DNA of 64,000 nt from Choricystis sp. odSpoLacu1 (lineage: Eukaryota > Chlorophyta > Trebouxiophyceae). The position numbers and the translations under genes are program-made. Below, in pieces: positions 3,089-34,159 of the stretch. The stretch is from assembly GCA_958009055.1 (NCBI GenBank), contig OY253660.1, positions 620,001-684,000 on the forward strand, in the 5' to 3' direction. The number at the start of each line of letters is the position of its first letter. Within the stretch, counting starts at the first letter, position 1. The notes under the pieces are model-generated. The model did no database searches and was not told the origin of the DNA. It saw nothing but the letters and a program-made list of their open reading frames with translations.

Positions 3089-4215
3089 ATGGACACCGCC
3101 CAACTGCAGGCGCAGGCCGCCGAAGCCGCCCGCCGCGCCCAGAGCGCCGCCACCAACGCCGCTTCCCAGATGGCCAACCAGATCAACAGCTGGTCGACGA
3201 TGGACACGCCGCCGTCGCCCTTTGAAAAGTTTGTCCCCGAAAAGCTGAAAGGCCAGTGGAACGTGTTCCCCTTCATCTACCCGCGCATCGGGGAGCCCAT
3301 CAACTCCAACTTTTTGAAGGCGATGGGGGCCGAGTTCCTGGGCACGTGCCTTTTCCTCTTCATCCTGGTTTCCCAGATTGTGTTCTCCTGCCTGCTGCGC
3401 GACAACGTGAATGAACTCGGCAAGGCGACCTGCCTGCTCAACCCTGTGCGCGTCATGCCCATCGCCGTCACCGCCGGCTTCGCCATCTTTGCCCTCGTAT
3501 ACTGCACCGCCTCCTACTCGGGCGGCCACCTCAACCCCGCCGTCACGCTGGGCGCCCTCGCCGCGGGCAAGATCACCGTCATGCGCGCCGTCGCCTACAT
3601 CATCGCTCAAATCGGGGGCGCCTGCACCGGCACCGCCTTTGTGTGGACCGTGCGGTCGGTGGGCGGCGCCGCCAACCAGGTCAACGCCGACGGCGGGTAC
3701 GCTGCCGCCTTCATGGCTGAATTCCTGCTCACCTTCATCCTCATGTTTGTGATCCTGTGTGCCACCGATGCCTCCCGCTACCGCTCCATCGCCCACCTGC
3801 CCGTGCTGGCGCCGTTTGCGATTGGGGTCACTGTGTTGATTGCGCACCTGGCTGCCATTCCGCTCGACGGCTGCTCCATCAACCCGGCGCGCTCGTTGGC
3901 CACCATGATGCTGTCTGGGGTGGCGTTCTGGCAGCAGTGGGTGTTTGTGAGTGTTTGGTTTTTTTGTTGGGCGCTGTGGAGGGAGAAAGAGAGGACACAC
4001 AAAACAACGCTCACCCCCCACTTTTCCCCCTCCCCCACCACCACCCTCAGTGGGTCGGCCCCATCCTGGGCGCCCTGGCCGCCACCTACGTCTACGAGCT
4101 GGGCTTCCGCCCCGACTACGACCCTTTTATCACGCTGGAGTCGGGCGGTGGCGCGGCCGGCGGCGCAGGCGCGGGAGCGTCGGGCGCCAAGCCGTCGCTC
4201 TACCCCACCAACTGA
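3089..4215 (+). CDS. Aquaporin / major intrinsic protein
   Basis: Channel protein for water or small neutral solutes. Exons are 3089-3946 and 4051-4215, giving 340 aa. An Ala/Gln-rich cytosolic N-terminus of about 75 residues precedes six membrane spans. Both pore half-helices are present and canonical: GGHLNPAVTLG in the first half and CSINPARSLA in the second. The second half has the usual 'FWQQWVFVW-VGPILGA' entry to the last helix, interrupted by the intron at a phase-0 site. The end is a Gly/Ala-rich tail finishing SLYPTN. Subfamily was not assigned; the extended N-terminus and the DNVNELGKATCLLNPVR extracellular loop are not those of a standard plant PIP or TIP. Its final 58 bp were copied in inverted orientation into the repeat junctions at about 16.4 and 26.0 kb. 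Confidence 0.93.
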
Positions 4216-6160
4216 AAGAGGAAAGCCCTCCTCTCTCCACCTCCAACCCCCGTGGCGGGTGTGGTGGCCCTCGCGTGAGCTGCGGTGTGTTGCCGCTGTT
4301 GTTTAGCGGCCGCCACCCTCCTTTCCGAGTGTGTCCAACCACCCGCCACCCTTTTTCCCCTCCCCGTTACACACACGCGACCCCCTTCTCCACATGCTGT
4401 GCGAACATGCGCGCGGTCCCTCCTATCCCCCAACACACACGCAACCAAGACGGAAACCAGAAAACGTTGTTTTTTCTTTGTTTTTTTTTCACCTCTTGCG
4501 GCAAAACCACTCTTTTTCTTCTCCTTTCAGGGGGAAAACAAAAAGCTCCCACCTTTTTGCCTCTCTCTCCCCACTGGTGTGTGAGGCCACAGGCACCACA
4601 AGCATGGTGCGTTGGTTTGGGCCAGCGGCGGCGGCTGAGTGGGGAGGTGCCAAAAACGCGCGACCGTGGCGGGCAGTTACGCGGGCGCTGGCACCCGCAT
4701 GCCGCGCTCCCGGCGGCATGTTTCCGCCCGTTCAGCAAGACCGAAGTGACTGCGTGCGCGCGCGGCAAGGATATTTGCAAGGAGGAGGCGGGGAGGGGCA
4801 GGGAGGCCACCCCCAATGCGCGGGCGCATGCCCAACCACATGCGGCCCACCCCCACACCCACAGCCCGGCCGCCTCGCGGTCGCCACGGCCCTGCTGCTG
4901 GCCGTCACCGCAGTCGCTGCCACCGCCGCGACGGTCGACGACGAGGCCAGCCTGCTGCTCGAAGCGACCGCCGCGGTCGACGCGGCCGCGGCGCGCGCGG
5001 ACGCCGCCTTCTTTGACGCCGCGGCGCCCGTCGTGTCGTGGGCGGAGCAGGGGGGGGATGCTCTTAGTGACAGTGACGATGAAAATGCTGCAGACGGCGA
5101 CGATGAATCGTCGCCCGACGCGGCGGCAGGCGCGCCCGCGCCCACGCTCTCCGAAGCCCCTGCCCCCGCCCCGTCCCAGGCGCCCGCTCCCGCGCCCACG
5201 GTGACCGCCACCCCTCCCACCTACGATGCAGCCACACTGGCCCTGGCGGGCGAGCTGGGGGTGGATGCAGCCGCCGCAGCCGCACTGCAACGCGCTGCCG
5301 CAGCTGACGGCGTGTCGCCGCGCACGCTGGCGGTCGCGCTGGCGATGGCGGTGGAGGCGCTGGATGATGCAGAGAATGTGATGGAGGCGGCAGCGGCCGT
5401 GCCCAGCGCGGCGGTCGCGCCGCCGACGCCCGCCCCTGCGCCGACCGACGGCGACGACGCGGAGCCTGACGCACCCCCACCGCCGCCGCCGCCGCGGGTA
5501 GTGACTGCTTCATCGTCTCCTGGCGCCGCAGGCTTGCTGCAAGCGATCGGGGGCGCGATTGGGGGGAGTGGCGGTGCCTCAACCGCCACCCCGTCACAAT
5601 CCACCCTGGGCGCCGCTTTAGGCCTCGCCCCTCCCTCCCCCATCGCGTACACGGGTGCATACGCGCCGTACCTGGCGTCCGCGCTGGGGAGTGGTGGTAA
5701 TGCAGCCCCCACGGCCGACACGGCTGCCCGCGCCGCCGACGACGCGGCCCTGCTGGCCGCCGTGTCGGCCGCCCTCAACAATGCACAAGCGTCCGCGCCC
5801 GCGACAGCGGCATCACTGGCTGCCGCGGCGGCGGCGGCGGCGGGGGCGCCGGCTGCGGGGCACGCGGCGGCGCCTGCACCCTCCAGCGAACGGGGGTTGC
5901 GCCTCGCGGACGCGCTGGCCGCCGCGTCCGCACTCGCAGCCGACGCGCGCGCCGCCAACGTGACGCTGCCTCCCGGGCGGTCGGCCCTGGGGCGGGCGGC
6001 GTCCCGGCTGGCGGCAGCCGCGGCGGCCGTCGCGGCGGCGGCCGCGCCGTCGCCGTCGTCGGCGCCCGTGGAGTTGACGTTTGGTGGGGGCAGGCTGGGA
6101 GGGCCGCTGCCACCGTCCCCTGGTGCCTCACCCGACCGCTACGACGCGGCGCGCGCGACC
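4158..6160 (+). repeat. Segment P: ancestral copy of the inverted insert
   Basis: This 2.0-kb segment (last 58 bp of aquaporin, the intergenic region, and gene A up to the codons for DRYDAARAT) reappears in reverse complement at 14473-16475 and 24095-26097. Coordinates map as x to 20633-x and x to 30255-x. Identity is near complete; I noticed single-base differences only (for example a Cys/Tyr-region base at about 4328 and a D to N change in the second inverted copy). The original lies outside the tandem period, so it is the donor. Confidence 0.92.
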
Positions 6161-6439
6161 GCGGCCGCGGGCGGCGCCGTGTCGCCGGGGGACATCACAT
6201 TTTTTGATGCCGCCCGCGCCTACGTGGGCGCCCGCCTGGGGGCGGCCACTCGAGGAGGAGGCGGCGCGGCAGCTCGCGCACTGGGACTGCCGCTGCTGGG
6301 CAGTGGGCCGGTCGTTATTGAGAGCGGCAGTGGTGGTGGCGAAAGCGCTGACGAGTTGTTTGTGCAGCAGCAGCCGTCGACCCCGCTGGACGGGCGGCCG
6401 CCGCCGCTGCCGCACGAGCCGCCGCCGCCCAGGAGGTAG
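4604..6439 (+). CDS. Gene A: secreted Ala-rich protein of unknown function
   Basis: Unrecognised protein, about 525 aa. The best model has exon 1 as only the ATG (4604-4606). It is followed at once by a GTGCGT donor, a 258-bp intron ending in ccccacacccacag, and exon 2 at 4865-6439. Spliced this way the protein starts MPGRLAVATALLLAV, a clean signal peptide. Unspliced, the frame also stays open and the hydrophobic stretch would sit about 90 residues in, which is unlikely for a secreted protein. The mature part holds an acidic stretch (DSDDENAADGDDESS), Pro/Ala-rich linkers, long Ala-rich helical segments, and a Pro-rich end (PPPLPHEPPPPRR). There are no Cys-rich or catalytic motifs. It may be a cell-wall or extracellular-matrix protein; that is inference from composition only. 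Confidence 0.6.
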   Translation: MVRWFGPAAAAEWGGAKNARPWRAVTRALAPACRAPGGMFPPVQQDRSDCVRARQGYLQGGGGEGQGGHPQCAGACPTTCGPPPHPQPGRLAVATALLLAVTAVAATAATVDDEASLLLEATAAVDAAAARADAAFFDAAAPVVSWAEQGGDALSDSDDENAADGDDESSPDAAAGAPAPTLSEAPAPAPSQAPAPAPTVTATPPTYDAATLALAGELGVDAAAAAALQRAAAADGVSPRTLAVALAMAVEALDDAENVMEAAAAVPSAAVAPPTPAPAPTDGDDAEPDAPPPPPPPRVVTASSSPGAAGLLQAIGGAIGGSGGASTATPSQSTLGAALGLAPPSPIAYTGAYAPYLASALGSGGNAAPTADTAARAADDAALLAAVSAALNNAQASAPATAASLAAAAAAAAGAPAAGHAAAPAPSSERGLRLADALAAASALAADARAANVTLPPGRSALGRAASRLAAAAAAVAAAAAPSPSSAPVELTFGGGRLGGPLPPSPGASPDRYDAARATAAAGGAVSPGDITFFDAARAYVGARLGAATRGGGGAAARALGLPLLGSGPVVIESGSGGGESADELFVQQQPSTPLDGRPPPLPHEPPPPRR

Positions 6440-6589
6440 AATCTTGGAGAGAGAGGTGGTGTTTTGTTTTCGTGTGTGTGTGAAAAGACCGCCCTGCTCG
6501 GGCTTGATTTTTCGTTTCATCGTCGCCACAACGCGGCCGCATTTTGCCCCTCTGCGCCGTGCGCTACCCTCTCCCGCGCCTTCCAGCGC

Positions 6590-8460
6590 ATGCCGCGCCG
6601 CCCCCTGCTGACAGCGCTCACCACCACGCTCGCCCGCTGCCTGGCTCTGAAAACACCGCCCCCACACCCCACAATGCGCGTCCCGACGTCGTTGGCTCAG
6701 TCCGCTCCCTCCGCCCCCTCCCCCGCCCCTCCCTCCTGCCGCGCGTCCACGCTGACACCGCGTGCCACGCCCCCTGGGTCGGCAGGGGCAGCAGCGGCGC
6801 CAGCTGTGGCCACCCCCCCTCCACCGCGCCCGCCGTCGGCGGCGCACGCCCCCAACTTTGCCCCCCGCGCCACCGTCAAGCAGCTGCTGTCCCCCGACGG
6901 CGGCGCCCGCCTCGTCGGCACCCAGCGCACGGTGCGCGGCTGGGTGCGCACGTGCCGCGCGCAGAAGGCGCGCGCCTTTCTGGAGGTGAGCGACGGGTCG
7001 ACCGCGACGGGGCTGCAGGTCGTGATCGAGCCCGGCACTCCAGGGTGGGGCGACGTGGAGGCAGGGCGCACGCCCACGGGTGCAGCAGTCGCCGTGGATG
7101 GCGTGGTGGTGGAGTCGAAAGGGGGGCGGCAAGCTGTGGAGTTGAAGGCCGACACGCTGACGCTCGTCGGTGGCTGCGACGCTGGCGCCTACCCGCTGCA
7201 AAAAAAGGCGCACTCGCCCGAGTACCTGCGCACCGTGGCCCACCTGCGGCCCCGCACCCGCACCCATGGCGCGTCCCTGCGGGTGAGGTCGGTGTTGGCG
7301 GCGGCGACGCACGAGTTTTACCAGGCGGCAGGGTTTGTGCACGTGCACACGCCGATCATAACTGCGGCCGACTGCGAGGGCGCGGGGGAAGCGTTTCAAG
7401 TGACGACGCTGCTGGCGGATGTGGACGCCGCCCTGGGCGCGGGTGGAGGGGCGAGCGAGGGCGAGGTGGCGGCCGCGGATGCTGCCGTGGCGGCGGCGGG
7501 CGACGCGGTGCGGTCGGCCAAGGCGAGCGGCGCGGGCGTCGGCGCCGCGCTGGCCGCGCTGGCCGAGGCCAAGGCGGCAGCCACCGCGGTGCGCGGCCGT
7601 GGCGCCGCGGCCACGGGGCCACCCCGCACGCCTGCCGGCATTGACTACACCGGCGACTTCTTTGGCGTGGCTGCCCGGTTGACTGTCTCTGGCCAGCTGC
7701 AGGCGGAGGCCGCCGCGTGCGCTCTTGGTGATGTCTACACTTTCGGCCCCACCTTTCGAGCCGAAAACTCAAACACAGCCCGCCACCTGGCCGAATTCTG
7801 GATGATCGAGCCCGAGATGGCGTTCGCGGGCCTGCCCCAAGCCATGGCGACGTGTGAAGCCCACGTGCGGGCGTGTGCGCGAGCGGTGCTCGACCGCTGC
7901 GCCGACGACGTGTCCGCCCTGGACGCTGCCTCCCCCGGCCTGGCAGACTCTTTAACGCACTTGGCAGCCACCAAATTCCACACCGTCACCTACGACGACG
8001 CCGTGGCCGCCCTGATGGCGTCTGGGCGTGACTGGGAGTTTGAGCCCGCCCCGGGGCGCGACCTGGCAGCCGAGCATGAGCGTTGGATCACAGACGTCCT
8101 GTTCGGCGGCGACCCCGTCTTTGTCACCGACTGGCCGGCCGACATCAAAGCCTTCTCTACATGCGGCTGAATGAGGATGGCCGGACGGTGGCGGCGATGG
8201 ACCTGTTGGTCCCCCGCGTCGGAGAACTGGCAGGCGGCTCTGCGCGTGAAGAACGGCCCTCCATCCTGGCCGACCGCACTGTCCGCCTCCGGCGTGGACG
8301 CCGCCCCCCTGTGGTGGTACACCGACCTGCGCGCCTATGGCAGTGTCCCCCATGCTGGCTTCGGAGTGGGGTTTGAGCGGCTCGTCCAGCTCGCGACGGG
8401 CGTCGACAACATCCGCGACACCACCCTGTTCCTCGCTACCCGGGCCACGCCGAGTTTTGA
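6590..8460 (+). CDS. Asparaginyl-tRNA synthetase, copy 1 (full 5' end, three indels near 3' end)
   Basis: Class II synthetase charging tRNA-Asn. The Ser/Pro/Ala-rich first 85 residues look like an organellar transit peptide. Then come the OB-fold anticodon-binding domain ([23 protein letters not shown]), motif 1 ([15 protein letters not shown]), an Ala-rich WHEP-like helical insertion of about 50 residues, motif 2 ([27 protein letters not shown]) and motif 3 ([11 protein letters not shown]). Relative to copies 2 and 3 this copy has +2 bp at about 8155, +1 at about 8274 and -1 at about 8431. The frame therefore stops at 8170, is restored after the second indel, and loses the final [10 protein letters not shown]. 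With these corrected it is 622 aa. This is the only copy with a promoter and a start codon. Confidence 0.88.
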
Positions 8461-8805
8461 AAGAGAGATGGTGTGTGTGAGAGAGAGAGAGAGGCGGCGT
8501 GTGTGTTTGGTGGTGATATGTGATTGAAAAAAAAAGAAGATTGCGGTTTTTTTCTTTCTGTCTTGCACGCCAAAAAAAATGGTTTGTGTGTTGGTAAAGA
8601 AAAGGAAAGGACACGATTCTCCGCAGCAGGAGACGCCGTGTTGAATTGTGGGGGAATGCATTGAGGGGTTGAGGGGGGGGCGGGGGAAGTGCACAAGCAC
8701 TTTTTGCTTTGGGGGGGAGGAAAAAAATCCTTCAAACAGGAAAACGTCATAGGAAAACCCAGAACTCTCTCTCTCTCTCTCCACACACACCACCACCACA
8801 CCACC
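8461..8805. other. Convergent 3' UTR region between AsnRS and E1
   Basis: 345 bp between two genes that end toward each other. It contains GA and CT microsatellites and A/T homopolymers but no coding signal. The corresponding regions at 18083-18429 and 27705-28051 are near identical apart from A-run lengths. Confidence 0.7.
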
Positions 8806-11800
8806 TCACTTGTTGTCGCAAAACCCTGCGGTCGCCTTGTTGGCCCAGTTGAGCTGCAACAAAAAGTCGCGCGCCCCGATTTTTGAGTTGGCGTAGCCGC
8901 CCCCTTTCGCCGCGTACACGCTGCCAAACTGCCACGCACACTTGTCCGCGTTCTCCATGCCCGCATCATCAAACCAGGCATCCAGCTCGGGGTCGCTCGT
9001 CGTCTCGGTCAGCTCGTGGGCGATGATGGAGGCCATCGCGTCGGCCTCCACGTTGCCATTGGGAGACGCGTTGGACTGGGCGGCACAGGCGGAGGGGCAG
9101 CGGGAGGCGGAGCCGACAAAGCCAAACTTGAACATGCGGCCAGAGTAGTCGTAGCTGAAGTGTGGCAGGGATGGGGGGGTGGGGAGGTGAGTGAAACAGA
9201 AAAACACGGCCGATCAAAAACACACACCTCCCCTTTCCTCCTTCCCTGCCACACACTGACCTGTACGAGTGCCAGCCGCAGTAGTTGCCACAGAAGGCGC
9301 CCGTCGCGGACGACCCCTGCGACACGCCCGGCGCCGTCAGCACCAGGGTGACCGAGTTGGCGTTGTAGGGGATGCGCCCATCCCCAATCAGGCACGCCAC
9401 GATGGCGCCCACCGCGTTGTCTGTCAATGCGGTGCCTTGGTAACACTTGTCCGACTCCAGCACGGTGGGGGACGCGCCAAAGGTGAGCTTGTTGGAGAGG
9501 GGGGTGCCGCTTTTGGTCATGTAGGACGTCTGCACGTTGAGCCAGGGGGAGCCGCCGACGCCCGCCCCAAAGTCATTCAGAATGGTGCGCGTGGTGGACT
9601 GGAAGCCGGACCCGTAGTAGACGTAGTTCATGACGGGGACGCCCGTCATGATGTTGCCGCCCCAGTTTTTGATGCCATACTGAACAAACGGCACGGTGGA
9701 GGGGGGGGGGCGGCAGCGTCGTGGGGGGTGGCGTCGTGGGCGCAGGCGTGGGCGCAGGCGTCGGCGCAGGCGTCGGCGCAGGCGTGGGGGAAGGAGGCGG
9801 CGGCGGCGGCTTGGTGGTCGGCGGCGGCGTGGTCGTCGTCGGTGGCGGCGGCGGCGGCGCCGTCGTCGGCGGAGGCGGCGGCGGCGGCGGCGGCGGCGGC
9901 TTCGTCGTGGGGGGCGGCGTGGTCGTCGTGGGCGGTGCCGACGTGGGCGGCGGCGTAGGCGGCCGCGTCGTGGGGGGCGGCGTGGTCGTCGTGGGCGGTG
10001 CCGTCGTGGGCGGCGGCGTCGGCGGCCGCGTCGTGGGGGGCGGCGTCGTCGTGGTCGGCGGCGGCGGCGGCGGCGGCGCCACGTACGCGGTCACCCGGCC
10101 CGGCCCCCACACATACACCACAAACGCGCCCGCGTCCGTGTTGTCTTTGCCCGTGGTCACCAGGTAGTAGGGCGTGTTGGCTTGGATGCCGGACACGACA
10201 AAGCCGGCGCGCCCGATCGAGGGGTAGTTGTCGTTGGCGGCGATCAGGTTGGTCAGCGGCGACGCCGGGTTGAACCCCCCCTTGTACAGCAGGGCAAAGT
10301 TATTCCACGCGGTTGTCGACCCCTGGCTGCGGAACTCGTAGGTGCCGGTCTCGGACACGGTGACCGGGGTGACGACGTAGCGGACGGCGATGGCAGCGCT
10401 GTCCAACGCCGTGCGCGCCTCCGTCGGCAGCCTAAACGTGGGCGCCCCCGCCGTCGTCCCCGACGTCGAGTAGCGCACCGCCATGGCGGTGCCCAGGTAG
10501 AAGCCGCCTGGGCCGGACGCGGTGACGGTGTAGGGGCCGACCGCGGCGTTGGACGACCCAGTGACGACGAGCGTATAGATCACGTTGCGGTTGAGAGACA
10601 CCTGGAAGCCGGCAGTTCCCACGCTGGGGTAGTCATCATTGGCGGCGATCAGGTTGGCCAGGGGGGAGGAGGGCGCGAAAGGGTAGGCGTAGAGGAGGGC
10701 AAAGTTGTTCCAGTTGCCGCCCGCCACGACGCGCAGGTCGTACACGCCCGCCGTGTCGACCACGAAATTGGCGGCCACATAGCGGACAGCGTTGGCCGAT
10801 GTCGGCCCCGCCGTGCGAGACGTGGAGGGACGGGAAAAGGTGGGGGCGCCCACCGTGGTGCCGGTCCAGGTGGCGCGAACCGTAAACGCTTGGAGCAGCG
10901 CGCGGCGAATGGATGACACCGACAGCAGGCGCCTGCGGGCGCCGCCTGTCGGGGTGGGCGCCGTCACCGACCCACCCTCACTGTCGCTGCCCATCGGCGG
11001 CAGGCCGGGGGGCGGCGCCAGCCCCAGCGTGATCGCAGCCGCTTGGGGGCCGTCCGTCGCGACCGCCAGCTCCGACGCGACGAGCAGCACGGTCGACTGC
11101 GCGGGGTCGTGAGTGAAGTTGGGGGCCAGCCCTGGCACTGAAGTCGCCGCCTCCCCCGTGGCCCAGTACAGGTTGGGGCCGGTGCCGTTGGGGCCAGACA
11201 CGGTGGACCAGGGGGCGGTGGGGGTGAGCGGAGCCAGGTGGGCGGGCGCGGGCGGTCGCGACCCTGCGCGCCCTTTCAGGGGGGCCACCGCGGCGAACGA
11301 GAAAGGGGCGCACGCGCAGCCACCGGGTTGGGCGCACGGGTCGAGGGCCAGCCAGGATGGAGACGCAGACACCGGGGTGCCGGCCGAGCCGCCGACAACT
11401 GTGGTCTTGGCCGCGGCCGCGCCCAGCGCGGCGGCCTTGTTGGCGTCCTTCTTCAGCAGCGGGGCCAGCTTGGCGGCGGCGGCCGCCAGCTTGGCGGTCA
11501 CGTTGACCGACTTGTAGAGGGAGGGGAGGAGGGGGGCGTCCTCGGGCTGGGCAAACTGCGGTTGGTGAGGAGGGAGGGGAATGGGGTCAAACAAGCCGTA
11601 ACGGCGTGCGCGCTCGTGGGGGGTGCGTAGACGCACACCAGCCTTGGCCACACCCTCTCCGCGGCCCGCCGTAAACCATGTGCAGTGTGTGTCGTGGCCG
11701 TTGGTGGAGGCGCGGGCGTTTGGGGCGCGGAGGCCGGACGGTTACGCCGGCGCACGCTCGCTGCGTGCGCGTCGCGGCGGGCGCGTGGCAATCCTCAAAC

Positions 11801-12073
11801 CACCCCCCCGCCTCCCCTCCTCCACCTCGTCCTACCCGCCCACCCCGCCCCACGCACCTGCTCCACAGCCAGTTCAGACGCTTGGGGATCCGAGGCGGAG
11901 ACGGCCTGTGTGGGGTGAGTGTTTTGGGGGGTGAGGCTCTCGCGGCCGTGGCGCGCGAATGCGGGGAAGCCGCCGCCGAACCGTCTGCCTGCCCCACGCT
12001 TGGCTCCACCATGCTCTCTCACCTGAGACGTCATCGCCAGGGCGACCAGCGCCAGCAGGGAGACGCGGCGCAT
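8806..12073 (-). CDS. E1 copy 1: EXORDIUM/PHI-1-domain secreted protein with PPC-like repeats
   Basis: Exons in order: 12073-12023, 11905-11858, 11555-9261, 9154-8806. Exon 1 encodes the signal peptide MRRVSLLALVALAMTSQ. The mature protein has two tandem beta-rich repeats of about 125 residues sharing 'WNNFALLY...PLxNLIAANDxYPSxGxAGF', resembling bacterial pre-peptidase C-terminal domains. A Pro/Thr linker of about 110 residues follows, likely hydroxyproline-type O-glycosylated. The C-terminal 250 residues are a phosphate-induced protein 1/EXORDIUM domain: VMNYVYYGSGF, a CGNYCGWHSY cysteine block, NASPNGNVEADAMASIIAHELTE, and the DKCAWQFGSVY end. Expected length is 913 aa. In this copy a G10 run at 9701-9710 (G9 in copies 2 and 3) breaks the frame between linker and EXORDIUM domain. 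Plant homologues act in the wall during growth. Confidence 0.88.
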
Positions 12074-12376
12074 GGCGCTGAAGGAGGGAGGGGTGGGGGG
12101 AGGGCAAGGTGAGGGCCTGCGCGCGCGGCGCATGCCGCAACACCCAAACACACACAAGACCTGCCTCCCTCCCACCAACGCCAGCCTCGACACCTTAGCA
12201 TGGCTGCCTCGACACCGCTGGTGGGGGGTGACGGAAGGAAAGGACGAGAGGGAGGGAGGGAGAGAACGCGAAAGGAAAAAGCGGCAGTGGCGACATGGAG
12301 AAACACAATTCGCCCACAAAACAACGCGTTCGCGCGCCGTTTCCCTCTCCCCACATACGCACACACGCACACCAAA
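12074..12376. promoter_or_regulatory. Divergent promoter between E1 and the thioredoxin-like gene
   Basis: 303 bp separating two start codons on opposite strands, repeated at about 21.70-22.00 and 31.32-31.62 kb. There is no clear TATA box. G/A-rich and CA-rich stretches are present. Shared regulation of the two secretory-pathway genes is inference. Confidence 0.45.
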
Positions 12377-13153
12377 ATGAAACGCCACATTGTCGCCCTG
12401 CTGCTGGCCGCCACCGCCCTGCTGGCGACCTGCGCGGTCGCCAAGCGCAAAGCGGACGCAGACCCCAAGCCAGACAAAGCGTTGGGCTGGTTGACGCCCA
12501 AACAGTTCGAGGTGGGTTGGTGGAGGAGGGGTGGGGGAGGCAGCATGTTGAAGGAGAGGGAGGGGAGAGCAGGTGGGGAGGCAGGGAGGGGGGGGGCGCA
12601 GCACGGCGCGCGCGTCTGGGTGCACCACGACGACGCCACAACCTTCCCACCCCTCCCACCCTCTCAGAAACTGGACCTCGCCACCAACACCAAGCCCATC
12701 ATGTTTGTCTTCACCCGACCCGGCTGCTCCGCCTGCTCCGCTCTAAAAGCCCAGCTCGCCCCCGCCCCGCAAGCCACGTCCGCCCTCTCCCGCATGTTCA
12801 CCGTCGTCCACGTGGATGGCGACGCCATGACGCACAGCGCGTGGGGGGGCAAACACCCGGAACACGCGCCCGTGGGCAAACACTACGTGCCGAGGGCCGT
12901 GTTTGCTGATGCCAAGGGGAGGGTGCGCCCCGACTTGAAGGCCCCGGGGGGCGACGCCGAGTTCCCGCACTACTACTCGTCCACCAGCCAGCTGGAGCGC
13001 GGCATGCGGGCCGCCTACATCTCAATTGTGGGGGGTGGGAAGGGGGTAAAGGCGGGGGCGGCGTCTGGGGTGAGCGAAACCAAAGCGACGCGGCGCGCGC
13101 GGCGGGCGGAGAAGAAGAAGCAGCAGGCGACGGTGGGCAAGGACGAGGTGTGA
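12377..13153 (+). CDS. ER thioredoxin-fold protein, TXNDC12/ERp18-like, copy 1
   Basis: Exons are 12377-12511 and 12668-13153, giving 206 aa. Residues 1-22 are a signal peptide (MKRHIVALLLAATALLATC). The thioredoxin fold follows, with active-site-like FTRPGCSACSALK, matching the TXNDC12/AGR2 pattern of WCGACKALK but with Trp replaced by Pro-Gly context. The cis-Pro region is YVPRAVFADAKGRV, as in ERp18. The basic tail ends KDEV, one residue away from the ER-retrieval signal KDEL. The likely role is disulfide formation or isomerisation on secreted proteins; its Cys-rich neighbours E1 and E2 are plausible clients (inference). The intron has complementary ends (GAGGGGTGGG with CCCACCCCTC). Confidence 0.85.
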   Translation: MKRHIVALLLAATALLATCAVAKRKADADPKPDKALGWLTPKQFEVGWWRRGGGGSMLKEREGRAGGEAGRGGAQHGARVWVHHDDATTFPPLPPSQKLDLATNTKPIMFVFTRPGCSACSALKAQLAPAPQATSALSRMFTVVHVDGDAMTHSAWGGKHPEHAPVGKHYVPRAVFADAKGRVRPDLKAPGGDAEFPHYYSSTSQLERGMRAAYISIVGGGKGVKAGAASGVSETKATRRARRAEKKKQQATVGKDEV

Positions 13154-13242
13154 GAGAGTGATGATGGTGTAAAGCAACAACAAAGGAAACGCGAGAACCA
13201 ACAAAACAACAAAAACCAGGTCTTCTCTCCCCACCTTCATTT

Positions 13243-14461: not shown

Positions 14462-14472
14462 GGTGGCCCCCC

Positions 14473-22776: not shown

Positions 22777-22865
22777 GAGAGTGATGATGGTGTAAAGCAA
22801 CAACAAAGGAAACGCGAGAACCAACAAAACAACAAAAACCAGGTCTTCTCTCCCCACCTTCATTT

Positions 22866-24083
22866 TCAGACACACTTGCCCGCTGTCGGCGACCACACGC
22901 TCTGCAGCAGCATCGCGTCCCCTCCCACCTCCGCGTTGGTCACCCCTTCACCCGAGCGTGCCGGTTTGACGGCCGGCCCAAAGCTCCACGCGCACCGCGA
23001 CGCCGCGTCGCGGCCCGAAGAGTCGTGCCACGCCCCTCCTTCAGCGTCGGTGGCCGCCCCCACGACGACAGCGGCCAGCGCGTTGACCAGGGCGGCGGCG
23101 GACGCGTCTCCACCAGGGGCGGCTGGCCACTGGGAGGCGCAGGCGCGGGGGCAGCGGGACGGGGCGCCGATGAAGGCAGCAGCCACGCGCGCTGCCGCGT
23201 CGCCGCCATCCGCATCGTCCGCTCGCGCGGTGGCGTGCCAGCCACAGTGGTCGGTGCACAGGGACCCCAGGGCGGTGGCGGCGGGGGAGGCGGGGGTGGT
23301 ACCACCACCCGCCGGCGTTTGATCTGTGCCCGCGTCTCCCAACACAACCACCAGCTGCCGGCTGGCGTTCAAAGGAGACCGTCCCGCCCCCATCGCACAC
23401 CCGGCGACTGCAGCCACAGCGCCCGGGGACAGGGCGTGGCCACGCCAGCAGCCGTCGGCGGAGTCGGCGACGGTGACCGGGGTGAGCGCGTCAACTCGAG
23501 GAGACCCCCCATACGGCCCCAACGCGGTCGTCAACCACGCCGAGTCTCCCAACGCTTTCGCAAACTTGGTCACAGCCGCCCTCGTGGCCCGCGGCCAGGC
23601 GGGGCCGTAGAAGACGAGGGTGAGGGCCACTCCGTCGGACAGTGTGCGGCCGCCGCCGTTGGTGAGGGGGGGGGACGGCGGCTTGGCGGACGCGGCATCG
23701 CCCTCGGACGCGGCCTGGAGGTCGTTGTCGGACACGGGGGCGCCGTCCGCGTCAAAGGCGCCCAAGTCTGCTGCCGCCCAGGGCGCGACAGGGAGGATGG
23801 GGCCAGAGGCTGCAGAGGCCGACGCATTGGCGCACGCTAGTCCACAAGCAGCCGCAGCTGCCCGAGCTTGAGCCAATGTAAACACTGGGACGGCGGCCAT
23901 GGCGGCGGCGGGGCCGGCAGCAGCCGACTTGCGCGGTCCGCGAGGGCGCGCGGGCGTCGCCGGTGGCACCTGCGTCGGTTGGGACGGCAACGCGGCCGCC
24001 GCAGCCGCAGCCGCCGCCCCGGCAGCCGCCTCCAGCGCTGCCGGGCGGGGGGGCACCACGTCCCCCACCCGCGCCAGGGGCGG
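22866..24083 (-). pseudogene. E2 copy 2: 5'-truncated, frame otherwise open
   Basis: As copy 1, but the G-run at 23666-23674 has nine bases. The Ala-rich region (VGDVVPPRPAAL onward) and the EXORDIUM-like domain therefore read through as one frame of about 400 residues to KCV. This shows the correct frame for all three copies. The signal peptide is missing and A' lies directly upstream on the same strand. Confidence 0.75.
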
Positions 24084-24094
24084 GGTGGCCCCCC

Positions 24095-25651
24095 GGTCGC
24101 GCGCGCCGCGTTGTAGCGGTCGGGTGAGGCACCAGGGGACGGTGGCAGCGGCCCTCCCAGCCTGCCCCCACCAAACGTCAACTCCACGGGCGCCGACGAC
24201 GGCGACGGCGCGGCCGCCGCCGCGACGGCCGCCGCGGCTGCCGCCAGCCGGGACGCCGCCCGCCCCAGGGCCGACCGCCCGGGAGGCAGCGTCACGTTGG
24301 CGGCGCGCGCGTCGGCTGCGAGTGCGGACGCGGCGGCCAGCGCGTCCGCGAGGCGCAACCCCCGTTCGCTGGAGGGTGCAGGCGCCGCCGCGTGCCCCGC
24401 AGCCGGCGCCCCCGCCGCCGCCGCCGCCGCGGCAGCCAGTGATGCCGCTGTCGCGGGCGCGGACGCTTGTGCATTGTTGAGGGCGGCCGACACGGCGGCC
24501 AGCAGGGCCGCGTCGTCGGCGGCGCGGGCAGCCGTGTCGGCCGTGGGGGCTGCATTACCACCACTCCCCAGCGCGGACGCCAGGTACGGCGCGTATGCAC
24601 CCGTGTACGCGATGGGGGAGGGAGGGGCGAGGCCTAAAGCGGCGCCCAGGGTGGATTGTGACGGGGTGGCGGTTGAGGCACCGCCACTCCCCCCAATCGC
24701 GCCCCCGATCGCTTGCAGCAAGCCTGCGGCGCCAGGAGACGATGAAGCAGTCACTACCCGCGGCGGCGGCGGCGGTGGGGGTGCGTCAGGCTCCGCGTCG
24801 TCGCCGTCGGTCGGCGCAGGGGCGGGCGTCGGCGGCGCGACCGCCGCGCTGGGCACGGCCGCTGCCGCCTCCATCACATTCTCTGCATCATCCAGCGCCT
24901 CCACCGCCATCGCCAGCGCGACCGCCAGCGTGCGCGGCGACACGCCGTCAGCTGCGGCAGCGCGTTGCAGTGCGGCTGCGGCGGCTGCATCCACCCCCAG
25001 CTCGCCCGCCAGGGCCAGTGTGGCTGCATCGTAGGTGGGAGGGGTGGCGGTCACCGTGGGCGCGGGAGCGGGCGCCTGGGACGGGGCGGGGGCAGGGGCT
25101 TCGGAGAGCGTGGGCGCGGGCGCGCCTGCCGCCGCGTCGGGCGACGATTCATCGTCGCCGTCTGCAGCATTTTCATCGTCACTGTCACTAAGAGCATCCC
25201 CCCCCTGCTCCGCCCACGACACGACGGGCGCCGCGGCGTCAAAGAAGGCGGCGTCCGCGCGCGCCGCGGCCGCGTCGACCGCGGCGGTCGCTTCGAGCAG
25301 CAGGCTGGCCTCGTCGTCGACCGTCGCGGCGGTGGCAGCGACTGCGGTGACGGCCAGCAGCAGGGCCGTGGCGACCGCGAGGCGGCCGGGCTGTGGGTGT
25401 GGGGGTGGGCCGCATGTGGTTGGGCATGCGCCCGCGCATTGGGGGTGGCCTCCCTGCCCCTCCCCGCCTCCTCCTTGCAAATATCCTTGCCGCGCGCGCA
25501 CGCAGTCACTTCGGTCTTGCTGAACGGGCGGAAACATGCCGCCGGGAGCGCGGCATGCGGGTGCCAGCGCCCGCGTAACTGCCCGCCACGGTCGCGCGTT
25601 TTTGGCACCTCCCCACTCAGCCGCCGCCGCTGGCCCAAACCAACGCACCAT
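24095..25651 (-). pseudogene. Gene A', inverted 3'-truncated copy 2
   Basis: Second inverted copy: start 25651-25649, exon 2 from 25390, cut at 24095 and running out of frame into E2 to a stop at 23837. It differs from the first inverted copy by at least one base (DRYD to DRYN next to the junction). Confidence 0.75.
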
Positions 25652-26039
25652 GCTTGTGGTGCCTGTGGCCTCACACACCAGTGGGGAGAGAGAGGCAAAA
25701 AGGTGGGAGCTTTTTGTTTTCCCCCTGAAAGGAGAAGAAAAAGAGTGGTTTTGCCGCAAGAGGTGAAAAAAAAACAAAGAAAAAACAACGTTTTCTGGTT
25801 TCCGTCTTGGTTGCGTGTGTGTTGGGGGATAGGAGGGACCGCGCGCATGTTCGCACAGCATGTGGAGAAGGGGGTCGCGTGTGTGTAACGGGGAGGGGAA
25901 AAAGGGTGGCGGGTGGTTGGACACACGCGGAAAGGAGGGTGGCGGCCGCTAAACAACAGCGGCAACACACCGCAGCTCACGCGAGGGCCACCACACCCGC
26001 CACGGGGGTTGGAGGTGGAGAGAGGAGGGCTTTCCTCTT

Positions 26040-26097
26040 TCAGTTGGTGGGGTAGAGCGACGGCTTGGCGCCCGACGCTCCCGCGCCTGCGCCGCCG
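26040..26097 (-). pseudogene. Aquaporin 3'-end fragment (second inverted copy)
   Basis: Same 58-bp aquaporin tail as at 16418-16475, abutting AsnRS at 26098. Confidence 0.9.
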
Positions 26098-27704
26098 CCA
26101 ACTTTGCCCCCCGCGCCACCGTCAAGCAGCTGCTGTCCCCCGACGGCGGCGCCCGCCTCGTCGGCACCCAGCGCACGGTGCGCGGCTTGGTGCGCACGTG
26201 CCGCGCGCAGAAGGCGCGCGCCTTTCTGGAGGTGAGCGACGGGTCGACCGCGACGGGGCTGCAGGTCGTGATCGAGCCCGGCACTCCAGGGTGGGGCGAC
26301 GTGGAGGCAGGGCGCACGCCCACGGGTGCAGCAGTCGCCGTGGATGGCGTGGTGGTGGAGTCGAAAGGGGGGCGGCAAGCTGTGGAGTTGAAGGCCGACA
26401 CGCTGACGCTCGTCGGTGGCTGCGACGCTGGCGCCTACCCGCTGCAAAAAAAGGCGCACTCGCCCGAGTACCTGCGCACCGTGGCCCACCTGCGGCCCCG
26501 CACCCGCACCCATGGCGCGTCCCTGCGGGTGAGGTCGGTGTTGGCGGCGGCGACGCACGAGTTTTACCAGGCGGCAGGGTTTGTGCACGTGCACACGCCG
26601 ATCATAACTGCGGCCGACTGCGAGGGCGCGGGGGAAGCGTTTCAAGTGACGACGCTGCTGGCGGATGTGGACGCCGCCCTGGGCGCGGGTGGAGGGGCGA
26701 GCGAGGGCGAGGTGGCGGCCGCGGATGCTGCCGTGGCGGCGGCGGGCGACGCGGTGCGGTCGGCCAAGGCGAGCGGCGCGGGCGTCGGCGCCGCGCTGGC
26801 CGCGCTGGCCGAGGCCAAGGCGGCAGCCACCGCGGTGCGCGGCCGTGGCGCCGCGGCCACGGGGCCACCCCGCACGCCTGCCGGCATTGACTACACCGGC
26901 GACTTCTTTGGCGTGGCTGCCCGGTTGACTGTCTCTGGCCAGCTGCAGGCGGAGGCCGCCGCGTGCGCTCTTGGTGATGTCTACACTTTCGGCCCCACCT
27001 TTCGAGCCGAAAACTCAAACACAGCCCGCCACCTGGCCGAATTCTGGATGATCGAGCCCGAGATGGCGTTCGCGGGCCTGCCCCAAGCCATGGCGACGTG
27101 TGAAGCCCACGTGCGGGCGTGTGCGCGAGCGGTGCTCGACCGCTGCGCCGACGACGTGTCCGCCCTGGACGCTGCCTCCCCCGGCCTGGCAGACTCTTTA
27201 ACGCACTTGGCAGCCACCAAATTCCACACCGTCACCTACGACGACGCCGTGGCCGCCCTGATGGCGTCTGGGCGTGACTGGGAGTTTGAGCCCGCCCCGG
27301 GGCGCGACCTGGCAGCCGAGCATGAGCGTTGGATCACAGACGTCCTGTTCGGCGGCGACCCCGTCTTTGTCACCGACTGGCCGGCCGACATCAAAGCCTT
27401 CTACATGCGGCTGAATGAGGATGGCCGGACGGTGGCGGCGATGGACCTGTTGGTCCCCCGCGTCGGAGAACTGGCAGGCGGCTCTGCGCGTGAAGAACGG
27501 CCCTCCATCCTGGCCGACCGCATGTCCGCCTCCGGCGTGGACGCCGCCCCCCTGTGGTGGTACACCGACCTGCGCGCCTATGGCAGTGTCCCCCATGCTG
27601 GCTTCGGAGTGGGGTTTGAGCGGCTCGTCCAGCTCGCGACGGGCGTCGACAACATCCGCGACACCACCCTGTTCCCTCGCTACCCGGGCCACGCCGAGTT
27701 TTGA
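26098..27704 (+). pseudogene. AsnRS copy 3: beheaded, otherwise open frame
   Basis: Same truncation as copy 2: no transit peptide, no start codon, Trp to Leu in the OB fold, open to GHAEF. Copies 2 and 3 are identical as far as could be compared by eye. Confidence 0.82.
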
Positions 27705-28051
27705 AAGAGAGATGGTGTGTGTGAGAGAGAGAGAGAGGCGGCGTGTGTGTTTGGTGGTGATATGTGATTGAAAAAAAAAAGAAGATTGCGGTTTTTTTCT
27801 TTCTGTCTTGCACGCCCAAAAAAAATGGTTTGTGTGTTGGTAAAGAAAAGGAAAGGACACGATTCTCCGCAGCAGGAGACGCCGTGTTGAATTGTGGGGG
27901 AATGCATTGAGGGGTTGAGGGGGGGGCGGGGGAAGTGCACAAGCACTTTTTGCTTTGGGGGGGAGGAAAAAAATCCTTCAAACAGGAAAACGTCATAGGA
28001 AAACCCAGAACTCTCTCTCTCTCTCTCCACACACACCACCACCACACCACC

Positions 28052-31000
28052 TCACTTGTTGTCGCAAAACCCTGCGGTCGCCTTGTTGGCCCAGTTGAGC
28101 TGCAACAAAAAGTCGCGCGCCCCGATTTTTGAGTTGGCGTAGCCGCCCCCTTTCGCCGCGTACACGCTGCCAAACTGCCACGCACACTTGTCCGCGTTCT
28201 CCATGCCCGCATCATCAAACCAGGCATCCAGCTCGGGGTCGCTCGTCGTCTCGGTCAGCTCGTGGGCGATGATGGAGGCCATCGCGTCGGCCTCCACGTT
28301 GCCATTGGGAGACGCGTTGGACTGGGCGGCACAGGCGGAGGGGCAGCGGGAGGCGGAGCCGACAAAGCCAAACTTGAACATGCGGCCAGAGTAGTCGTAG
28401 CTGAAGTGTGGCAGGGATGGGGGGGTGGGGAGGTGAGTGAAACAGAAAAACACGGCCGATCAAAAACACACACCTCCCCTTTCCTCCTTCCCTGCCACAC
28501 ACTGACCTGTACGAGTGCCAGCCGCAGTAGTTGCCACAGAAGGCGCCCGTCGCGGACGACCCCTGCGACACGCCCGGCGCCGTCAGCACCAGGGTGACCG
28601 AGTTGGCGTTGTAGGGGATGCGCCCATCCCCAATCAGGCACGCCACGATGGCGCCCACCGCGTTGTCTGTCAATGCGGTGCCTTGGTAACACTTGTCCGA
28701 CTCCAGCACGGTGGGGGACGCGCCAAAGGTGAGCTTGTTGGAGAGGGGGGTGCCGCTTTTGGTCATGTAGGACGTCTGCACGTTGAGCCAGGGGGAGCCG
28801 CCGACGCCCGCCCCAAAGTCATTCAGAATGGTGCGCGTGGTGGACTGGAAGCCGGACCCGTAGTAGACGTAGTTCATGACGGGGACGCCCGTCATGATGT
28901 TGCCGCCCCAGTTTTTGATGCCATACTGAACAAACGGCACGGTGGAGGGGGGGGGCGGCAGCGTCGTGGGGGGTGGCGTCGTGGGCGCAGGCGTGGGCGC
29001 AGGCGTCGGCGCAGGCGTCGGCGCAGGCGTGGGGGAAGGAGGCGGCGGCGGCGGCTTGGTGGTCGGCGGCGGCGTGGTCGTCGTCGGTGGCGGCGGCGGC
29101 GGCGCCGTCGTCGGCGGAGGCGGCGGCGGCGGCGGCGGCGGCGGCTTCGTCGTGGGGGGCGGCGTGGTCGTCGTGGGCGGTGCCGACGTGGGCGGCGGCG
29201 TAGGCGGCCGCGTCGTGGGGGGCGGCGTGGTCGTCGTGGGCGGTGCCGTCGTGGGCGGCGGCGTCGGCGGCCGCGTCGTGGGGGGCGGCGTCGTCGTGGT
29301 CGGCGGCGGCGGCGGCGGCGGCGCCACGTACGCGGTCACCCGGCCCGGCCCCCACACATACACCACAAACGCGCCCGCGTCCGTGTTGTCTTTGCCCGTG
29401 GTCACCAGGTAGTAGGGCGTGTTGGCTTGGATGCCGGACACGACAAAGCCGGCGTGCCCGATCGAGGGGTAGTTGTCGTTGGCGGCGATCAGGTTGGTCA
29501 GCGGCGACGCCGGGTTGAACCCCCCCTTGTACAGCAGGGCAAAGTTATTCCACGCGGTTGTCGACCCCTGGCTGCGGAACTCGTAGGTGCCGGTCTCGGA
29601 CACGGTGACCGGGGTGACGACGTAGCGGACGGCGATGGCAGCGCTGTCCAACGCCGTGCGCGCCTCCGTCGGCAGCCTAAACGTGGGCGCCCCCGCCGTC
29701 GTCCCCGACGTCGAGTAGCGCACCGCCATGGCGGTGCCCAGGTAGAAGCCGCCTGGGCCGGACGCGGTGACGGTGTAGGGGCCGACCGCGGCGTTGGACG
29801 ACCCAGTGACGACGAGCGTATAGATCACGTTGCGGTTGAGAGACACCTGGAAGCCGGCAGTTCCCACGCTGGGGTAGTCATCATTGGCGGCGATCAGGTT
29901 GGCCAGGGGGGAGGAGGGCGCGAAAGGGTAGGCGTAGAGGAGGGCAAAGTTGTTCCAGTTGCCGCCCGCCACGACGCGCAGGTCGTACACGCCCGCCGTG
30001 TCGACCACGAAATTGGCGGCCACATAGCGGACAGCGTTGGCCGATGTCGGCCCCGCCGTGCGAGACGTGGAGGGACGGGAAAAGGTGGGGGCGCCCACCG
30101 TGGTGCCGGTCCAGGTGGCGCGAACCGTAAACGCTTGGAGCAGCGCGCGGCGAATGGATGACACCGACAGCAGGCGCCTGCGGGCGCCGCCTGTCGGGGT
30201 GGGCGCCGTCACCGACCCACCCTCACTGTCGCTGCCCATCGGCGGCAGGCCGGGGGGCGGCGCCAGCCCCAGCGTGATCGCAGCCGCTTGGGGGCCGTCC
30301 GTCGCGACCGCCAGCTCCGACGCGACGAGCAGCACGGTCGACTGCGCGGGGTCGTGAGTGAAGTTGGGGGCCAGCCCTGGCACTGAAGTCGCCGCCTCCC
30401 CCGTGGCCCAGTACAGGTTGGGGCCGGTGCCGTTGGGGCCAGACACGGTGGACCAGGGGGCGGTGGGGGTGAGCGGAGCCAGGTGGGCGGGCGCGGGCGG
30501 TCGCGACCCTGCGCGCCCTTTCAGGGGGGCCACCGCGGCGAACGAGAAAGGGGCGCACGCGCAGCCACCGGGTTGGGCGCACGGGTCGAGGGCCAGCCAG
30601 GATGGAGACGCAGACACCGGGGTGCCGGCCGAGCCGCCGACAACTGTGGTCTTGGCCGCGGCCGCGCCCAGCGCGGCGGCCTTGTTGGCGTCCTTCTTCA
30701 GCAGCGGGGCCAGCTTGGCGGCGGCGGCCGCCAGCTTGGCGGTCACGTTGACCGACTTGTAGAGGGAGGGGAGGAGGGGGGCGTCCTCGGGCTGGGCAAA
30801 CTGCGGTTGGTGAGGAGGGAGGGGAATGGGGTCAAACAAGCCGTAACGGCGTGCGCGCTCGTGGGGGGTGCGTAGACGCACACCAGCCTTGGCCACACCC
30901 TCTCCGCGGCCCGCCGTAAACCATGTGCAGTGTGTGTCGTGGCCGTTGGTGGAGGCGCGGGCGTTTGGGGCGCGGAGGCCGGACGGTTACGCCGGCGCAC

Positions 31001-31318
31001 GCTCGCTGCGTGCGCGTCGCGGCGGGCGCGTGGCAATCCTCAAACCACCCCCCCGCCTCCCCTCCTCCACCTCGTCCTACCCGCCCACCCCGCCCCACGC
31101 ACCTGCTCCACAGCCAGTTCAGACGCTTGGGGATCCGAGGCGGAGACGGCCTGTGTGGGGTGAGTGTTTTGGGGGGTGAGGCTCTCGCGGCCGTGGCGCG
31201 CGAATGCGGGGAAGCCGCCGCCGAACCGTCTGCCTGCCCCACGCTTGGCTCCACCATGCTCTCTCACCTGAGACGTCATCGCCAGGGCGACCAGCGCCAG
31301 CAGGGAGACGCGGCGCAT
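28052..31318 (-). CDS. E1 copy 3: EXORDIUM/PHI-1-domain secreted protein, intact frame
   Basis: Exons 31318-31268, 31150-31103, 30800-28507, 28400-28052, giving 913 aa. The frame is intact (G9 at 28947-28955). One amino-acid change from copies 1 and 2 is visible: SIGRAGF becomes SIGHAGF in the second PPC-like repeat (about 29455). Confidence 0.9.
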
Positions 31319-31621
31319 GGCGCTGAAGGAGGGAGGGGTGGGGGGAGGGCAAGGTGAGGGCCTGCGCGCGCGGCGCATGCCGCAACACCCAAACACACAC
31401 AAGACCTGCCTCCCTCCCACCAACGCCAGCCTCGACACCTTAGCATGGCTGCCTCGACACCGCTGGTGGGGGGTGACGGAAGGAAAGGACGAGAGGGAGG
31501 GAGGGAGAGAACGCGAAAGGAAAAAGCGGCAGTGGCGACATGGAGAAACACAATTCGCCCACAAAACAACGCGTTCGCGCGCCGTTTCCCTCTCCCCACA
31601 TACGCACACACGCACACCAAA

Positions 31622-32398
31622 ATGAAACGCCACATTGTCGCCCTGCTGCTGGCCGCCACCGCCCTGCTGGCGACCTGCGCGGTCGCCAAGCGCAAAGCGG
31701 ACGCAGACCCCAAGCCAGACAAAGCGTTGGGCTGGTTGACGCCCAAACAGTTCGAGGTGGGTTGGTGGAGGAGGGGTGGGGGAGGCAGCATGTTGAAGGA
31801 GAGGGAGGGGAGAGCAGGTGGGGAGGCAGGGAGGGGGGGGGCGCAGCACGGCGCGCGCGTCTGGGTGCACCACGACGACGCCACAACCTTCCCACCCCTC
31901 CCACCCTCTCAGAAACTGGACCTCGCCACCAACACCAAGCCCATCATGTTTGTCTTCACCCGACCCGGCTGCTCCGCCTGCTCCGCTCTAAAAGCCCAGC
32001 TCGCCCCCGCCCCGCAAGCCACGTCCGCCCTCTCCCGCATGTTCACCGTCGTCCACGTGGATGGCGACGCCATGACGCACAGCGCGTGGGGGGGCAAACA
32101 CCCGGAACACGCGCCCGTGGGCAAACACTACGTGCCGAGGGCCGTGTTTGCTGATGCCAAGGGGAGGGTGCGCCCCGACTTGAAGGCCCCGGGGGGCGAC
32201 GCCGAGTTCCCGCACTACTACTCGTCCACCAGCCAGCTGGAGCGCGGCATGCGGGCCGCCTACATCTCAATTGTGGGGGGTGGGAAGGGGGTAAAGGCGG
32301 GGGCGGCGTCTGGGGTGAGCGAAACCAAAGCGACGCGGCGCGCGCGGCGGGCGGAGAAGAAGAAGCAGCAGGCGACGGTGGGCAAGGACGAGGTGTGA
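31622..32398 (+). CDS. ER thioredoxin-fold protein, TXNDC12/ERp18-like, copy 3
   Basis: Exons 31622-31756 and 31913-32398, 206 aa, with the same features as copies 1 and 2. It ends 89 bp before the convergent end of E2. Confidence 0.85.
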   Translation: MKRHIVALLLAATALLATCAVAKRKADADPKPDKALGWLTPKQFEVGWWRRGGGGSMLKEREGRAGGEAGRGGAQHGARVWVHHDDATTFPPLPPSQKLDLATNTKPIMFVFTRPGCSACSALKAQLAPAPQATSALSRMFTVVHVDGDAMTHSAWGGKHPEHAPVGKHYVPRAVFADAKGRVRPDLKAPGGDAEFPHYYSSTSQLERGMRAAYISIVGGGKGVKAGAASGVSETKATRRARRAEKKKQQATVGKDEV

Positions 32399-32487
32399 GA
32401 GAGTGATGATGGTGTAAAGCAACAACAAAGGAAACGCGAGAACCAACAAAACAACAAAAACCAGGTCTTCTCTCCCCACCTTCATTT

Positions 32488-33881
32488 TCAGACACACTTG
32501 CCCGCTGTCGGCGACCACACGCTCTGCAGCAGCATCGCGTCCCCTCCCACCTCCGCGTTGGTCACCCCTTCACCCGAGCGTGCCGGTTTGACGGCCGGCC
32601 CAAAGCTCCACGCGCACCGCGACGCCGCGTCGCGGCCCGAAGAGTCGTGCCACGCCCCTCCTTCAGCGTCGGTGGCCGCCCCCACGACGACAGCGGCCAG
32701 CGCGTTGACCAGGGCGGCGGCGGACGCGTCTCCACCAGGGGCGGCTGGCCACTGGGAGGCGCAGGCGCGGGGGCAGCGGGACGGGGCGCCGATGAAGGCA
32801 GCAGCCACGCGCGCTGCCGCGTCGCCGCCATCCGCATCGTCCGCTCGCGCGGTGGCGTGCCAGCCACAGTGGTCGGTGCACAGGGACCCCAGGGCGGTGG
32901 CGGCGGGGGAGGCGGGGGTGGTACCACCACCCGCCGGCGTTTGATCTGTGCCCGCGTCTCCCAACACAACCACCAGCTGCCGGCTGGCGTTCAAAGGAGA
33001 CCGTCCCGCCCCCATCGCACACCCGGCGACTGCAGCCACAGCGCCCGGGGACAGGGCGTGGCCACGCCAGCAGCCGTCGGCGGAGTCGGCGACGGTGACC
33101 GGGGTGAGCGCGTCAACTCGAGGAGACCCCCCATACGGCCCCAACGCGGTCGTCAACCACGCCGAGTCTCCCAACGCTTTCGCAAACTTGGTCACAGCCG
33201 CCCTCGTGGCCCGCGGCCAGGCGGGGCCGTAGAAGACGAGGGTGAGGGCCACTCCGTCGGACAGTGTGCGGCCGCCGCCGTTGGTGAGGGGGGGGGGACG
33301 GCGGCTTGGCGGACGCGGCATCGCCCTCGGACGCGGCCTGGAGGTCGTTGTCGGACACGGGGGCGCCGTCCGCGTCAAAGGCGCCCAAGTCTGCTGCCGC
33401 CCAGGGCGCGACAGGGAGGATGGGGCCAGAGGCTGCAGAGGCCGACGCATTGGCGCACGCTAGTCCACAAGCAGCCGCAGCTGCCCGAGCTTGAGCCAAT
33501 GTAAACACTGGGACGGCGGCCATGGCGGCGGCGGGGCCGGCAGCAGCCGACTTGCGCGGTCCGCGAGGGCGCGCGGGCGTCGCCGGTGGCACCTGCGTCG
33601 GTTGGGACGGCAACGCGGCCGCCGCAGCCGCAGCCGCCGCCCCGGCAGCCGCCTCCAGCGCTGCCGGGCGGGGGGGCACCACGTCCCCCACCCGCGCCAG
33701 GGGCGGCGCGCCGCCCCCCCCCCTGCGGCGCGGCCGACGCGGCCACGTCGGACGCGGCCGTCAGGGCGGCGTCCCGCACGGCGCCCAGGGTGCCTCGCAG
33801 CTCGGCGCCTGCGCCGGTGCGTTGGGCGAGGGCAAGCGGCAGCAGGAGGAGGAGGAGGAGGAGGAGGGAGGGAATTCGCAT
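32488..33881 (-). CDS. E2 copy 3: full-length EXORDIUM-like paralogue (two homopolymer frame breaks)
   Basis: The only copy with its own 5' end. ATG at 33881, then signal peptide MRIPSLLLLLLLLLPLALA, a short helical region, an Ala/Pro-rich stretch, and a degenerate EXORDIUM domain (VALTLVFYGPAW, CTDHCGWHA, SRCPRACASQW, RCAWSFG, KCV end). C10 at 33714-33723 and G10 at 33288-33297 each break the frame by one base. Removing one base at each gives exactly 464 codons (463 aa), and copy 2 carries the nine-base form of the second run. Compared with E1 it has no PPC repeats and no Pro/Thr linker, and the HE of the AHELTE motif is gone, so any metal or enzymatic role is doubtful. Confidence 0.75.

Positions 33882-34157: not shown

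Positions 34158-34159
<2 letters not shown>

Follow-up and report, generated by a model that had tools for sequence, protein, structure and literature searches.

The 64,000-nucleotide stretch of DNA analysed here (referred to as the window) spans positions 620,001 to 684,000 of contig OY253660.1 of the green alga Choricystis sp. odSpoLacu1 (C12:620001-684000 in the 14.59-Mb, 19-contig assembly GCA_958009055.1), and contains a tandem array in which a block of some 7.6 kb (Q) occurs three times with an inverted copy of a 2-kb segment (P) at each junction. Self-BLAST of the window revealed the order P, a single spacer of 690 bp, Q1, a filler, P'1, Q2, a second filler, P'2 and Q3. More specifically, the source segment P (4158-6161, plus strand) is followed by the copy-neutral spacer (6162-6851), which occurs once, and by Q1 (6852-14461, plus strand; 7610 bp), whose right edge meets a 10-bp filler (GGTGGCCCCC; 14462-14471) at the first Q/P' join. 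P'1 (14472-16475, minus strand; 2004 bp) then leads into Q2 (16476-24083, plus strand; 7608 bp), which has novel joins at both edges and is followed at the second Q/P' join by an identical 10-bp filler (24084-24093), P'2 (24094-26097, minus strand; 2004 bp and one substitution away from P'1) and Q3 (26098-33706, plus strand; 7609 bp), with a novel join at its left edge and unique DNA at its right edge. The Q copies are direct and 99.8-99.9% identical, which is far beyond chance, and both inverted copies of P have 99.85-99.9% identity to it over 2007 bp.

These exact edges bear out the triplication of Q with inverted P at every junction that a preliminary description of the window had proposed, as well as its claim that both inserts use the same breakpoints. 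That description had further taken P from just left of the array, which holds for the source at 4158-6161, except that 690 bp (6162-6851) part it from Q1. Its 11-bp filler is indeed identical both times but measures 10 bp, and its 9,622-bp period applies from Q2 to Q3, the distance from Q1 to Q2 being 9624 bp because of indels. The matches listed for the whole genome included no additional full copy of either P or Q, and an 18-mer across the filler matched exactly at the two Q/P' joins and nowhere else. Because C12 (684,245 bp) bears TTAGGG repeats at both ends, the array is located ~31-60 kb from the chromosome end. The repeat is real as assembled, its layout being known here from the assembly sequence alone.

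The left flank of the array carries genes for a TIP49/RuvB-like protein, a methyltransferase (PF02390) and an aquaporin. P itself comprises the aquaporin 3' end, intergenic DNA and ~87% of the frame of a gene referred to as gene A, counted from its 5' end, and the spacer holds the end of gene A together with the 5' side and N-terminal extension of an asparaginyl-tRNA synthetase (AsnRS) gene (6464-8460, plus strand; end inferred from the stop in Q2). The AsnRS body lies within Q, alongside a gene for a secreted-looking protein with two similar repeats, a Pro/Thr-rich hinge and a Phi_1 domain (PF04674; approximately 8400-11741, minus strand), a gene for a thioredoxin-like protein (PF13098; 12200-13153, plus strand, this extent being that of the open frame) with a signal-peptide-like stretch and the C-terminus KDEV, and a gene for a second Phi_1 protein (Phi_1-B; approximately 13243-14461, minus strand), which is 5'-truncated in Q1 and Q2. 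The repeats of the first Phi_1 protein are presumably PPC-like. Upstream of the truncated Phi_1-B, and in the same direction, lies the 5' part of gene A (14215-16302 and 23837-25924, minus strand); together they might form a chimeric gene, the two frames as assembled being off by one at the G6 run of the join. One further Phi_1 place was found in the genome, on C16, and the event would have raised the Phi_1 places from 3 to 7, which may also have altered the dosage of the Phi_1 genes and of the thioredoxin-like gene.

Which of the joins are ancestral was examined in an alignment of five AsnRS sequences, namely the Q1 frame, the Q2 frame and three relatives (P0001, P0003 and P0013). P0001 (83% identity to the window AsnRS, covering 92% of the query) agrees with Q1 to the left as well as to the right of the left breakpoint, over 11 residues and over (N/D)FAPRATVK, respectively. 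In the Q2 frame, in contrast, unrelated residues precede NFAPRATVK and no in-frame ATG is present upstream of the breakpoint. The alignment thus marks the left edge of Q1 as the ancestral one, in agreement with the preliminary description of unit 1, and, since P0001 agrees with Q1 and not with Q2 across this breakpoint, the left edges of Q2 and Q3 as derived. In addition, the tryptophan of GWVRT is kept in Q1 and all three relatives and is a leucine in the Q2 frame, Q3 having the same base as Q2. The AsnRS copies in Q2 and Q3 are probably non-functional. P0013, with 54% identity to the window AsnRS, is the best listed match with a recognised genome-project name, that of Botryococcus braunii. 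A second AsnRS-like gene lies elsewhere in the genome (C7:93037-94440).

In the P copy, the gene A frame stays open across the right edge of P until it meets a stop. Just outside the right edge of Q3 there is a signal-peptide-like start (MRIPSLLLLLLLLLPLALAQ), in a frame that differs from that of Phi_1-B and with a C10 run between them. Judged from these reading frames rather than from relatives, the right edges of P and Q3 would be ancestral as well, so that the earlier claim for the right edge of unit 3 is retained as likely. No homologue of gene A was found at E<=0.001 among 7989 candidates scored.

Comparison of the three Q copies, P and the two P' copies yielded 4 substitutions plus indels, which upholds the earlier claim that the copies differ at few bases and hence are recent. 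Two substitutions are common to both derived units (site 6942, G in Q1 and T in Q2 and Q3; site 4328, A in P and C in both P') and the other two occur in the last unit only (site 10210, C in Q1 and Q2 and T in Q3; site 6143, G in P and P'1 and A in P'2). Six indels are private to Q1 and all fall within 8154-9701 (1.55 kb), in which no substitution occurs. Three of them disrupt the last ~300 bp of the AsnRS frame near its conserved C-terminus, a region that is open in Q2 (and the same in Q3) and present in the relatives. Because these indels come without substitutions and partly in homopolymers, the cluster looks like probable consensus errors, although it may alternatively reflect real decay of Q1. 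Q2 has one private indel (one G fewer in the run at 14043, Q1 numbering); its variable sites agree with Q3 as far as 9701 in Q1 numbering and with Q1 at 10210.

A second duplication was first seen as a repeated match pair (C3:734791 and 754299) obtained with the window's own queries. Two direct copies, D1 (C3:732489-749379) and D2 (C3:751996-768886), which align over 16,893 bp at 99.97% identity, flank a junction insert of 2616 bp (C3:749380-751995) that was copied from C12:516054-518671, to which it is 99-100% identical and where the source is intact. The layout is duplication-insert-duplication, as in the window array, with an interchromosomal insert, and the window layout is therefore not a one-off. 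At the C3 joins, D and the source have perfect common sequence of 15 bp (TGTGCAGCGCTGTGG) in one case and of 4 bp (CCCG) in the other; when window sequence was joined at random 20,000 times, matches of at least 4 bp arose in 3.1% of the joins and of at least 15 bp in 0. Over 749420-751990, the insert and its source differ by 5 substitutions and three 2-base indels, and a second comparison, of the whole 2616 bp, also gave 5 mismatches; D1 and D2 differ by 1 substitution in 16,891 bp and 4 single-base indels (5/2616 vs 1/16,891 substitutions, p=2e-4, Fisher test). Such an excess is what low-fidelity synthesis would give, while gene conversion between the D copies could be an alternative source of their low divergence. 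Separately, window 37115-37522, in an AceTr/GPR1 region right of the array, is 70% identical to C3:745273-745677, and D1 and D2 both contain this match.

The best explanation of these data, to which we assign a probability of about 0.68, is template switching followed by unequal exchange, recently and near the chromosome end. Copying would have proceeded through Q and left the template at the Q right edge (33706 in Q3), beside the C10 run, and P would then have been copied backwards from 6161 to 4158. Return to the Q left edge (6852) and renewed copying of Q would have given P-spacer-Q-P'-Q, which amounts to a local cycle in which a single templated insertion was made, in inverted orientation. 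Unequal exchange between Q copies would subsequently have added one more of the completed Q-P' units, exchange within Q being the simplest way from Q-P'-Q to Q-P'-Q-P'-Q. Polymerase template switching, the order of events and the exchange are what we infer from this anatomy, and template switching, which explains both the window and the C3 cases with one process, is best supported. In support, Q is present again after P' and D after the C12 insert, the source P is intact at 4158-6161 (copied, not cut), and both novel joins are inverted (Q end to P end; P start to Q start) and found twice in identical form. Moreover, one substitution sets both P' copies apart from P, and another sets Q2 and Q3 apart from Q1.

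Several observations weigh against this interpretation. The window joins are without perfect microhomology, one being blunt (with an imperfect similarity of 8/9 positions, read by eye) and the other carrying the 10-bp filler. For this reason, the fork stalling and template switching (FoSTeS) or microhomology-mediated break-induced replication (MMBIR) named in the preliminary description is presumed rather than seen at these joins: it offers the best fit, matches the layout and agrees with the microhomology of the C3 case, but not with the lack of perfect microhomology in the window. Divergence between P and P' (1/2004) is not above that of Q (1/7608; p=0.37), and the difference between insert and flanking-copy divergence with both cases pooled (p=3e-4) is driven by C3. 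The mosaic nature of Q2 is as unequal exchange would predict, and provides thin evidence for the earlier claim that the finished unit was exchanged; however, it consists of one substitution (10210) and of Q1 indels of doubtful status that are possibly errors, a private Q3 change at 10210 would give the same pattern, and the P' join at the right of Q2 follows from the layout and lends the exchange no independent support.

The main rival to template switching is a chimeric extrachromosomal circle (of Q and P', or of D and the C12 fragment) that arose through end joining and entered the chromosomal Q or D via homologous recombination; two rounds of this, or a dimer, would yield the triplication. 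Circular intermediates have been proposed for segmental duplications, as far as the cited excerpt goes (PMC7450558), and such a circle predicts the same anatomy in both cases, has the longer piece as the duplicated one (Q of 7.6 over P of 2.0 kb; D of 16.9 over 2.6 kb), and suits the blunt and filler joins of the window. It nevertheless requires two separate steps, does not predict the excess substitutions in the C3 insert, and fits less well with the C3 joins and their microhomology of 15 and 4 bp, which could nonetheless come from microhomology-mediated end joining. We consider this explanation unlikely.

That the array is an assembly artefact, chimeric or collapsed, appears highly improbable: read overlap would not create a filler that is exact with its flanks nowhere else, the copies carry both private and shared substitutions, C12 has telomere repeat at both ends, and the independent C3 case has the same layout. 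What such an artefact does account for is the weak consensus in Q1, with its six indels and no substitution in 1.55 kb (8154-9701), three of which break AsnRS, and the homopolymers that vary among copies. Another alternative concerns the second step only and is compatible with template switching, namely that rolling or repeated re-replication made all copies at once. The very low divergence and the derived substitutions common to both units are in line with it, but Q2 matches Q1 and not Q3 at 10210, a single site, and we regard this course of events as quite unlikely.

Other leads were rejected. A templated origin of the filler did not emerge from the 18-mer search, in which the exact matches fell at the two joins alone and four one-mismatch matches elsewhere were patternless by eye, and an 11-mer match inside AsnRS as filler source was within chance by a rough estimate. 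G-quadruplex (G4) motifs are absent from the 100 bp on either side of each of the four breakpoints, whereas 25% of the window is that close to such a motif; only the C10 run was found, next to the Q right edge. The A-family DNA polymerase genes at two loci do not tell mechanisms apart. Nothing at the joins supports a mobile element or retroposition, no search aimed at transposons having been made.

Recent duplications do not look abundant in the genome, to judge from the Pkinase and Helicase_C places: by eye, no identical pairs were seen among either the 139 Pkinase places (from 156 first-look candidates, of which 122 were scored) or the 85 Helicase_C places (91/91 candidates scored). Neither was a near-identical copy found of window 33707-53000 (39 of 56 candidates scored) or, besides short and telomere-like matches, of window 60001-64000; all of these samples together represent little of the genome, with window 1-4157 and 53001-60000 outside the queries. 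Both recent duplications that were met (2/2) have a templated insert, and were met through the window's own queries, not in a census. The subtelomeric region 60001-64000 is related to C2:1272872-1300970, with 67-70% identity in the two longest matches, and that stretch of C2 sits >120 kb inside the end of its contig. Contig C19 (91,072 bp) has 38% GC in its first 10 kb and is plastid-like, this part encoding cysA- and accD-like proteins. Medakamo hakoo, a likely B. braunii relative, is described in the excerpt cited as having a genome of 15.8 Mb with 72.7% GC and TTAGGG telomeres (PMC9871001).

Although this kind of rearrangement is already known, it is of interest that it recurs within an algal genome of 14.6 Mb, and the listings from a limited search of open-licence papers contained no account of templated inserts of kilobase size where algal duplications join. 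Recent segmental duplications in the lineage might even stem mostly from low-fidelity cyclic template switching in which every junction receives a templated insert of 2-3 kb, of local or interchromosomal origin, a generalisation that is speculative and rather doubtful. If true, templated-insertion cycles would have left a natural record outside cancer in this genome, which would also be a source of new gene joins, for example the secretory 5' part of gene A ahead of Phi_1-B. The papers on templated-insertion cycles and on duplication-normal-inversion/duplication (DUP-NML-INV/DUP) concern, in the parts cited, human disease and cancer, and two base-resolved, very young algal cases would make the mechanism, its error rate and its gene-making effects testable in a small organism.

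The window shows the pattern of DUP-NML-INV/DUP, in that P and Q are multiplied, 6162-6851 is single and one segment is inverted. As far as the excerpts of that report go, the PLP1 cohort likewise has two duplicated segments with a copy-neutral gap, and a proximal segment inverted between two direct distal copies is one possible structure (PMC6902434). Of the 159 joins in that cohort, 23.9% had insertions and 32.1% microhomeology, and the window joins (blunt with imperfect similarity; 10-bp filler) fall within the range of these aggregate data (PMC6902434). The algal event differs in being kilobase-scale, in a compact genome, and in the further multiplication of its unit to three. Moreover, opposite-oriented LINEs (long interspersed nuclear elements) or Alus mediated one switch in two DUP-NML-INV/DUP individuals described there (PMC6902434), whereas self-BLAST (E<=1e-10) revealed no inverted repeats at the window breakpoints besides P/P'. 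The 'cycles of templated insertions' (PMC7025897) are, as excerpted, alike in their strung copied templates and in the return to re-replicate a host segment, and the interchromosomal insert of C3 adds to the likeness; they are, however, somatic cancer events, whereas the algal cases sit in an assembly. Pol32-dependent segmental duplication in yeast (PMC2518615) provides, in the part cited, a comparable replication-based duplication in a small eukaryotic genome. Theta-mediated end joining in the green alga Chlamydomonas involves, according to the excerpt, microhomology and templated insertions as here, the latter usually being 3-30 bp (PMC8495919) and thus far under the 2.0-2.6 kb of the present inserts.

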